From an uncultured Opitutia bacterium (GTDB lineage: Bacteria; Verrucomicrobiota; Verrucomicrobiia; Opitutales; Coraliomargaritaceae), in NCBI GenBank assembly GCA_937136395.1, contig CAKZOI010000071.1, positions 62,001-126,000 of the forward strand: a DNA stretch of 64,000 nt, in the 5' to 3' direction. The position numbers were made by a program, and so were the translations under genes. Positions within the stretch are counted from its first letter, which is position 1; the number at the start of each line of letters is the position of its first letter. The notes under the pieces are model-generated. The model saw only the letters and a list, made by a program, of their open reading frames with translations, had not been told where the DNA came from and searched no databases. Of the stretch, positions 47,862 through 51,128 are shown piece after piece.

Positions 47862-50800
47862 ATGGACTTCGGTATTCTTAGGAATTACACATTCACTATG
47901 CTCGCATTGGGCTGTGCTCAGTTATCAGCGCAGTCCGTATCGGTCGAATTGATTGAGGACTATGGCAACTCCTATCAAGCAGAAGTCACGCTGACGAATG
48001 ACACGCTTACAGCCATTGATAGCTGGTTAGTGCTTTTGCAACTGGATGGGCCTTTAGATGATTTTTGGAAAAGTCTTTATCAAGAGTCGGAGAGTTTTCC
48101 CAACAGCTTCCAATACGCCTTTTCGAATGAGAGCTATAATGGCGACATCGAGCCAGGTGCCTCGGAAAGTTTCAACTTTATCGTCGCCACCCCGTCGGAG
48201 CCCTCATTGCCAGATGGCGGTATGGTTACTGTAAATTGGCTCCCCGTGGCTGATCCGCGCTTGAGAGTCGGGGATGTCAACGTGACCGAGGGTGATGACC
48301 ATTCGACTGTGCTGGTGTTTGACGTCCGACTCAGTCCCGCCGTTTTAGATGCTGAAGTGACCGTTAATTATACGACCGTAAATGGCACCGCGCTGGCGGG
48401 GAGTGATTACACCGCGACTTTAGGCGTATTGACCTTTGCCGCAGGAGAAACCTCCAAAACGGTTTCCGTTAGCATCCTTGGAGACTTGGTGGAAGAATCG
48501 ACCGAGAGTTTTGAATTACTACTCTCCGATGCAGTCAACGCAGGCTTTGCCGACGCAGTCGCCACGGCACGTATTTTCGATGACGATGCGCTCGAGGTCG
48601 TCTTAGGAAAGCAGCAAACAGGCGCATACAACTATGCGGAGGCCTTGCAAAAATCGCTCTATTTTTATGATGCGCAGCGCTCCGGTGATCTGCCCGAAGG
48701 CTTTCGCGTGAGCTGGCGTGGCGATTCTGCACTGAGCGATGGGAGTGATGTCGGGCTCGATCTCTCCGGTGGCTTTTACGACGCGGGCGATCACATGAAG
48801 TTCGGCCTACCGATGGCACACAGTTTAACCATGCTCTCGTGGGGAGCGATCGAATATCCAGAAGCTTATGTCGAGACGGGGCAGATCGATTCGATACTCG
48901 ACCAGCTGCGTTGGGGCGCGGACTACTTTATGAAATGCCATGTGCGCGATCTCGATGGCGCGACCACTGCGCTCTATGCGCAAGTCGGCAATGGATATAC
49001 CGACCACGCATACTGGGGCACTTCTGAGAGTATGACGATGGCGCGCCCCGCATATAAAGTCGACGCAGAGAGCCCTGGTTCAGATGTTGCGGCAGAGACG
49101 GCAGCGGCAATGGCTGCGATGTCGATTCTACTTTTCGATTCAGATGCAAGCTTTGCCGCCGAATTGATCGAGCACGCTACGGCACTGTATACTTTTGCAG
49201 ACTCTCACCGTGGTCGCTATAGCGATGCGATACTGAACGCAGTCAATTTTTATGAGTCGAGTGGATACCAAGACGAACTTGTTTGGGCGGCGCTTTGGTT
49301 GTATCGAGCGACGGGTGACCATGCGTGGCTGGTAAAAGCCAAGGCTGAGTATCCCAGCATGCCGCAAGGTTCGCAGTGGACCCTCTCTTGGGATGATAAA
49401 GCCTATGGCTGCTACGTATTACTGGCGATGCTGGACGGAGGCAGTGAATATCTCAGCGACGCGCAAACCTGGTTAGATTTTTGGTCAGTCGGTGACAATG
49501 GGCAGCGAGTGGCTTACACGCCCGGTGGTCTTGCTTGGCTAGACGAATGGGGTTCCTTGCGCTACGCGGCCAATACCGCATTTGCTGCCTTCGTCTATGC
49601 CGATCATGTCAATGACCCAGACGGTCGCTATACCGACTTCGCCCGTTCACAGATTGAATACATCCTCGGCACGAATCCACAAAACCGCAGCTACGTCTGT
49701 GGTTTTGGAGTCAATCCGCCGATCAACCCACACCATCGCAACGGGCATGCATCGACGACGAATACGATCCATCTTCCGGTGGATAATCTAAACACACTTT
49801 ACGGAGCTTTGGTTGGAGGGCCAGGCATCGACGATGCATATGCCGATGATCGCACAGACTTTCAGCGCAACGAAGTGGCGATGGATTATAACGCGGCCTT
49901 CACAGGCGCTGTTGCGCGTATGTATATTGAGCAGGGCGGTTACGCTCTAAGCGAGATTGATGCTGCGGCGCCGTCCTCAATACTCGTATATGAAAATGTG
50001 GACCTATTCCCACTCGGCGGCACCAGTAAGAACGAGTGGAGAGACCTTTGGCCTGGCACTAAATGGGTCAACGGAGCCGACGAGGGGCGCATCGAAGTCG
50101 ATAGCGAGATTGCTTACGGCGGTTCAGGTCGATCGATCAAAGTGCTTTACCCAGAGGGTGCTAAGCAGTCGGGCAATAGCGGTGCTCAATGGTTTATTGA
50201 TTTAAACGGCGCGCATGAGAGCATGTATTTCAGCTATTGGGTGCGCTTCGATCCCGACTTTGATTTTGTTCTCGGTGGCAAACTTCCCGGCTTGGGTGGC
50301 GCGACTTCCTTTGATGACCGCACGCATGAGTGGTCGGGGCGTTTGATGTGGCGCGAAAATGGTTGGGCGGAGTTTTATATTCATGTTCCCGACGCGCACC
50401 AGAACGACCCAGGAGATCGTTTCTGGTGGAATACAGAGGGCTTTCAAGCGGTCTTTGTTCCTGGGCGTTGGCATCACATTGAGATCCACCTCAAGATGAA
50501 CACTCCTGGAGAGGATGATGGCCTTGCCGAAGGTTGGTTCGACGGTGTCAAAGCCGCCAGCTACCCGGGCTTTAACTTTCGCGATACAGGCACCGCCGAT
50601 GCGAGTATCGCCTGGGTCTTCTTCAGCACATTCTTCGGTGGTAGCAGTAGCGACATTTGGAACGCGAGCAAAGACGAGTATGCCCGCTTTGACGAGCTCA
50701 TCGTATCGAGCGAACGCATCGGCTATCCTGGCAAGCCTACCGATGTCGATGCGGATAAGCTACCCAACGAGTGGGAGTTGCTCCACTTTGGCAGCGATAG

Positions 50801-51128
50801 CCTTGCCGACCCCGAAGCCGATGACGACGGCGACGGTAGTGACACCTACTTTGAATATATTGCTGGGACAGATCCAAAAGATGCTGCCGACAAGCTGAGC
50901 CTAGCGATGAGTTCTCAAGCTGGAGTGCCCTTCGTCGCAGGCATTCATGGCAAGGCTGGCCGCGAGTATCGCTTAATGCGTAAACTCAATCTGACTGATA
51001 ACGAGTGGGTCGAAGTGGATCGAGTCGAAGCGCTAGCTGCCGACGGCGATGTCGCACTGACCGATTCCGAAGCCTTCGACCAAGCTTTCTACCGCGTAGA
51101 AGCACTCCTGCCTTTTAACATTCAATAG
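47862..51128 (+). CDS. GH9 cellulase fused to CBM2-like, Calx-beta and PL14-like domains
   Basis: 1,088 residues from the ATG at 47862; an in-frame TTG lies upstream. Signal peptide (1-24), a CBM2-like domain (25-130), a Calx-beta domain (133-245, [20 protein letters not shown]), then the GH9 catalytic domain (250-690). Key GH9 motifs are present: [13 protein letters not shown] (catalytic Asp pair, about 305) and [17 protein letters not shown] (acid Glu, about 669). Residues 700-945 resemble polysaccharide lyase family 14 ([49 protein letters not shown]). A calcium TSP3-like linker and a short tail end the protein. It would cut beta-1,4-glucan and possibly a uronan. Confidence 0.8.

Follow-up and report, generated by a model that had tools for sequence, protein, structure and literature searches.

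A verrucomicrobial protein joining a GH9 cellulase to a PL14 lyase domain, with a probable role in dismantling composite algal walls

The locus described here raises the question of whether a single bacterial protein carries both a cellulase and a uronate lyase, and what kind of wall such a protein would attack. In a 64,000-nucleotide stretch from an uncultured Opitutia bacterium (the window; all coordinates count from its position 1), an intact open reading frame at 47862-51128 on the forward strand encodes a product of 1088 amino acids followed by a stop codon. The initial annotation had called CBM2-like (carbohydrate-binding module family 2), Calx-beta, GH9 (glycoside hydrolase family 9) and PL14-like (polysaccharide lyase family 14) domains in this product. 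It had proposed a bifunctional enzyme for a wall of interwoven cellulose and glucuronan, as in green algae, and took such a pairing as not known to be described. Pfam searches bore out the four domain calls: the matches to CBM_2, Calx-beta, GH9 and Polysacc_lyase_14 all exceed their cut-offs and lie far above chance. The quoted motifs were all found, with GGFYDAGDH at residue 303, the second GH9 motif at 670 and FSTFFGGSS at 921, together with GGKLPGLGG at 805 and a further lyase motif at 826. Judged from sequence and modelling, this is probably a secreted two-enzyme protein that dismantles a composite algal wall.

The GH9 match (497.8 bits) is full-length, covering residues 258-683, and the domain shares 61% identity over 438 aligned residues with E4 of Thermobifida fusca (1js4). 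D307, D310 and E671 align with D55, D58 and E424 of E4, all three catalytic acids being kept; in family GH9 the Asp pair serves as the base pair and the Glu as the acid. With the full-length match, the Asp pair and the Glu all present, the domain belongs to GH9, and it is the only GH9 domain in the host genome.

Behind GH9, where the initial annotation had placed a separate C-terminal domain of 245 residues, Polysacc_lyase_14 (PF21294) matched residues 756-945 at 114.8 bits, where the family cut-off is 27. The real domain extends over about 711-957, wider than the Pfam match, and is the sole PL14 domain in the host genome; the separate domain is real, and is itself followed by a module at residues 961-1088 that had gone unmentioned. 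Sequence searches with the PL14 domain retrieved AkAly30 (5gmt) and vAL-1 (3a0n), and a four-row profile added Aly36B of family PL36. An AlphaFold2 (AF2) model of the domain, based on 29 sequences, is a beta jelly roll (predicted local distance difference test, pLDDT, 87.1; predicted template modelling score, pTM, 0.88). Employing VIA-align, we found this model closest to 5gmt (Z 26.4), Aly36B (24.4-24.7) and vAL-1 (23.5-23.8; 3gne, 23.8), followed at lower ranks by the PL20 glucuronan lyase 2zzj (18.2), X122 domains (about 16.5), Cip1 (16.1) and then GH16 glucanases and lectins. PL14 and PL36 lyases were ahead of all other matches by at least 5 Z units; identity to the solved structures is about 20-24%.

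Because likeness of fold alone shows no function, we compared the active-site residues. K807, S825, R827 and Y839 align with K111, S138, R140 and Y152 of the AkAly30 chain and with K92, S114, R116 and Y128 of the vAL-1 chain. They are invariant across 29 aligned PL14 domains. In the comparison of the clade with 27 other PL14/PL36 sequences (below), the constancy of K807 and R827 is in part a product of selection, since the motifs holding them served to pick the domains; Y839 and H841 played no part in the choice. K807 and Y839 also align with the two positions mutated to Ala in the K143A/Y185A substrate complex of Aly36B (6kcv). In vAL-1, R116 contacts the bound sugar (PMC3764139), and the enzyme has been crystallised with D-glucuronic acid (GlcA). 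The Aly36B lysine acts as both base and acid, according to the title of a reference cited in PMC13235733. The domain thus has the family-model match, the jelly-roll fold and, in its active site, the Lys, the Ser, the Arg and the first of the two Tyr; the one trait of characterised PL14 members that is missing is the second active-site Tyr (Y130 of the vAL-1 chain, Y187 of Aly36B), in place of which stands His841. Since PL14 is defined by sequence and fold, and the domain agrees in both, its membership stands despite His841. A chance match or a plain lectin was ruled out by fold, motifs and conservation. The Pfam search and structure prediction suggested in the initial annotation gave a lyase match and a fold closest to PL14 and PL36 lyases, with the catalytic residues kept, rather than the bare LamG-type binding fold that the annotation had named as the outcome that would overturn its proposal.

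In a scan of named genomes, relatives were found in Coraliomargarita sp. SDUM461004 (L073; described as Thalassobacterium sedimentorum, PMC11980603), Opitutia bacterium UBA7441 (L074), Haloferula rosea (L076), Verrucomicrobiia Co_bin.296 (L077) and Chloroflexi AL-N1 (L075), and a further one in genome G320 (L064). The five full-length relatives (L073, L074, L076, L077 and L064) are all from Verrucomicrobiota, and the kinship of the matches assigns the host to one family with Thalassobacterium and Coraliomargarita. Pfam recognised CBM2-GH9-PL14 in L064, in the G039 copy of the L073 gene (L062) and in the G278 copy of the L076 gene (L063); in L074 and L077 the same arrangement is backed by sequence alignment. 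Calx-beta is present in the window protein, L074 and L076 and absent from the other three full-length members. Only 4 of 384 genomes of the class carry the clade, with bit scores of 521-538 and a next best of 133; the clade is therefore rare and sharply bounded. Among the relatives, conservation is 72-79% for PL14, 64-74% for GH9 and 39-63% for CBM2, and PL14, as the best-conserved part of the protein, is therefore under selection.

In phylogenetic trees, the fused GH9 domains form one branch (99/98) and the PL14 domains of the clade another (100/100), with a branch of 1.12 at the clade base in the PL14 tree. One branch in each tree fits a single fusion with later loss or transfer, a fusion old enough to have formed its own clade. 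The Chloroflexi AL-N1 protein (L075:5785-6804) is a lone PL14 domain of the clade whose short N-terminus holds VNPHHGNVYASTTDDINQP. This segment is a remnant of the GH9 C-terminal region: a search among four proteins aligned it with L077 residues 545-571 at E 4e-6, 15 of 29 positions being identical. The AL-N1 genome has four other GH9 genes. On the simplest reading, the lone lyase would be what is left of a fused ancestor after loss of the cellulase part. For the PL14 domain of the fused clade, viral contigs yielded no relatives, and plasmids yielded only distant PL14 domains, from Halorussus and a cyanobacterium, at about 30% identity.

Both catalytic families were also seen with other partners. 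L065:4739-7366 (G023) encodes an 876-aa chain in which a sulfatase is fused to a PL14 domain, and L069:7940-10708 and L071:3693-6359 encode chains of 923 and 889 aa, each ending in a PL14 domain that follows about 700 residues without a confident Pfam family. The nearest GH9 relatives outside the clade lie in much larger proteins of the same order (L094:1717-8520, L095:2784-8183, L096:1653-6380, L097:3244-7350 and L072:3331-6909). These combine a lytic polysaccharide monooxygenase (LPMO, AA10), three CBM2, often Calx-beta, GH9 and a GH18 chitinase in a single chain of up to 2268 aa, except that L097 shows no LPMO and L072 no GH18; this type of cellulase therefore has several partners. A literature search for a chain of cellulase, chitinase and LPMO gave no match, and the architecture looks unusual.

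At position 841, His was found in all seven clade members and Tyr in all 27 other PL14/PL36 sequences, namely 24 from Verrucomicrobiota genomes plus AkAly30, vAL-1 and Aly36B. Since the other active-site residues are unchanged and no part of the protein is better conserved than PL14, we read the site as tuned rather than dead. The GH9-fused PL14 domains may even be a distinct lyase subfamily in which the Tyr-to-His change alters the pH optimum or redirects specificity, perhaps to a cellulose-bound polymer rich in GlcA, in bacteria otherwise without classical alginate lyases; we offer this as a tentative suggestion. The fixed change poses a simple, testable question about PL14 mechanism and substrate choice. 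It could also be taken to mean that a lyase fold has become a uronate-binding module, its second active-site Tyr being lost clade-wide. The fold family does include non-catalytic lectins and binding modules, and the Cip1 core has the same fold without convincing activity, but a binding module would hardly be expected to keep K807, S825, R827 and Y839, which include both residues mutated in the Aly36B substrate complex, or to hold His841 strictly instead of letting it drift, in the most conserved part of the protein. We consider that explanation improbable.

If both halves are active, the protein would be anchored to cellulose by CBM2, and GH9 would cut beta-1,4-glucan by inverting hydrolysis, with D307/D310 as the base pair and E671 as the acid. 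The PL14 jelly roll would act on an acidic polyuronate with 1,4 linkages and break it by beta-elimination, K807 serving as base and acid together with Y839, R827 binding the sugar, and H841 occupying the usual position of the second Tyr. By stripping the uronate matrix, the lyase would expose cellulose to the attached cellulase.

The identity of the uronate is less clear than the presence of a lyase. Xu et al. (ISME J, May 2026, PMC13235733) distinguished four types of bifunctional enzyme for brown-algal walls, among them PL14+GH9 with one or two CBM2, and assayed one of each type; the PL14+GH9 representative showed alginate lyase activity and glucanase/CMC (carboxymethyl cellulose) activity. 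Since this representative cut alginate and the nearest solved relatives of our domain are alginate lyases, alginate appears the likeliest substrate, at about even chances. Several observations weigh against the wall-dismantling role or its alginate version. The published enzyme is likened to the present clade by domain composition alone, not by sequence; His841 stands where Tyr is otherwise constant; family-by-family searches of the host genome found no PL5/PL17-type, PL6-type or PL7 lyase (the first PL7 search, confined to the host, was uncontrolled, and an order-wide repeat matched 5 of 103 genomes, not that of the host); and the closest cultured carrier, T. sedimentorum SDUM461004, was reported negative for hydrolysis of alginate and CM-cellulose (PMC11980603). 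The plate tests are weak evidence, because the gene may not have been expressed. The absence of PL5/6/7/17-type lyases, the five GH88-family (unsaturated uronyl hydrolase) genes of the host and the phenotype of T. sedimentorum, which is positive for D-glucuronic acid (PMC11980603), place glucuronan or another GlcA polymer next after alginate, as a substrate worth considering if somewhat doubtful. The host genome also gave a single heparinase II/III-type match, weakly like the heparin lyase HepB.

A lyase half specific for glucuronan (beta-1,4-glucuronic acid polymer), directed at walls that mix cellulose with glucuronan, is what the initial annotation favoured. The host's GH88 genes and missing alginate lyase families, the use of D-glucuronic acid by T. 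sedimentorum and the crystallisation of vAL-1 with that sugar, its Arg116 matching R827, all speak for it. The domain is nevertheless nearer in sequence and fold to AkAly30 and Aly36B than to vAL-1 or the PL20 glucuronan lyase, the published PL14+GH9 representative acted on alginate, GH88 genes serve many uronate polymers, and nothing connects the host with green algae; this version is less likely than not, though far from negligible. Of the annotation's proposal, the cellulase and the lyase with their catalytic residues hold, and the green-algal wall is one candidate target; nothing in this analysis favours green over brown algae or decisively separates glucuronan from alginate. Ulvan, glucuronoxylan, a marine uronan yet to be named or some other acidic polymer of the wall would suit a clade so far from characterised PL14 enzymes (by identity to the structures and by its basal branch) and with an altered active site; the window also contains two sulfatase genes upstream of the enzyme gene. 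However, those PL14 and PL36 enzymes that the cited sources name as characterised act on alginate or GlcA polymers, and the sulfatase genes are separated from the enzyme gene by other genes, with no conserved linkage seen; we regard such a substrate as quite unlikely, though less so than the binding module. A secreted cellulase-lyase acting on a composite algal wall remains our preferred reading. Gene content, the negative alginate test of the carrier and the brown-alga model disagree, which cautions against assigning alginate by default.

The remaining features are listed below. The N-terminus reads as a signal peptide, and orthologs share an A-x-A|Q-like junction at the putative cut, suggesting that the protein is secreted. 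A TTG start 42 bases upstream of the ATG is possible, but the ATG agrees better with the relatives. The CBM_2 match is weak (29.1 bits against a cut-off of 24) yet recurs in orthologs, which places the module in family 2. The C-terminal module consists of an acidic TSP3-like stretch and a beta-rich domain; the latter recurs at the C-termini of many secreted proteins across the order, including the upstream gene product. The module is 45-47% identical to the C-terminus of that product in relatives and is probably surface- or secretion-related. A full-length AF2 model from six rows (pLDDT 47, pTM 0.37) gives no domain arrangement.

Features of the enzyme gene and its neighbours (window coordinates)
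Feature	Residues or length	Position	Strand	Basis or remark
Signal peptide-like segment	1-23	47862..47930	+	read from sequence; putative cut probably between LSA and QS
CBM2 cellulose-binding module, divergent	31-117	47952..48212	+	PF00553 E 1.3e-6; PDB 2rtt ChiC E 4e-4
Calx-beta domain	138-242	48273..48587	+	PF03160 E 1.9e-18
GH9 cellulase domain	258-683	48633..49910	+	Pfam E 5e-149; 1js4 E 2.4e-170
PL14 lyase domain	711-957 (about)	49992..50732	+	Pfam E 6e-33; AF2 model; 5gmt Z 26.4; alignments
C-terminal module	961-1088	50742..51125	+	matches at residues ~959-1085 in many genomes
Upstream gene, trypsin-like, LamG and PKD-like domains	1334 aa	43812..47816	+	Pfam
DUF5722 family gene, function-unassigned domain family		51233-53332		downstream, adjoins enzyme gene; E 4e-113

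A gap of 45 bases separates the upstream trypsin/LamG gene from the enzyme gene's ATG, and the two genes are probably co-transcribed. An ortholog (about 50% identity) occupies the same place in L073 and L074 and is not found in the Haloferula branch, so that the linkage extends over three genomes; the pair sets a secreted protease beside a wall-degrading enzyme. A pectate-lyase-like gene follows the DUF5722 gene, and an ExbB/TonB set lies, like the sulfatase genes, further upstream. In promoter and terminator scans, scores were no better than those of shuffled sequences.

The pairing of GH9 with PL14 is already known, and the present protein is a rare further example; the claim that it was undescribed is out of date, because PMC13235733 lists PL14+GH9 with CBM2. 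The verrucomicrobial clade with its His841 signature, the Chloroflexota lone lyase with its GH9 scar and the conserved trypsin/LamG neighbour all appear to be new; a search of the open literature found no description of the clade, the signature, the Calx-beta variant or the linked trypsin/LamG gene. The strategy of stripping an acidic matrix and cutting the underlying cellulose with one chain is now extended to Verrucomicrobiota.

Compared to the type of PMC13235733, the protein has the same two catalytic families and CBM2 in one chain and so shares its architecture, but carriers of the published non-GH5 types are reported to be primarily Actinomycetes, whereas this protein is verrucomicrobial and has Calx-beta and a TSP3-like C-terminus. 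CelAly and ClGP (GH5+PL31, from Aquimarina and Cellulophaga) likewise put a cellulase and a uronate lyase in one secreted chain, built from unrelated catalytic families (GH5_2 and the beta-helix PL31) with Bacteroidota accessory domains. T. fusca Cel9A/E4 is close in GH9 identity and catalytic acids; a CBM3 was not found behind GH9 in our protein, where the PL14 domain stands instead. The Cip1 family (CBM plus a PL20/PL14-like core) shares the fold (3zyp), but no sequence match to it was found and no convincing activity has been reported for Cip1. vAL-1 (chlorovirus) and Aly36B (6kcw) share the fold and the Lys/Arg/Tyr set of the active site, at about 20-22% identity and with Tyr at the H841 position. 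AkAly30 of Aplysia is nearest in fold and has the GGKLPGL and RLMWR motifs and the Lys, Ser, Arg and first Tyr, but it is a stand-alone enzyme, is 24% identical and carries the second Tyr where this clade has His.
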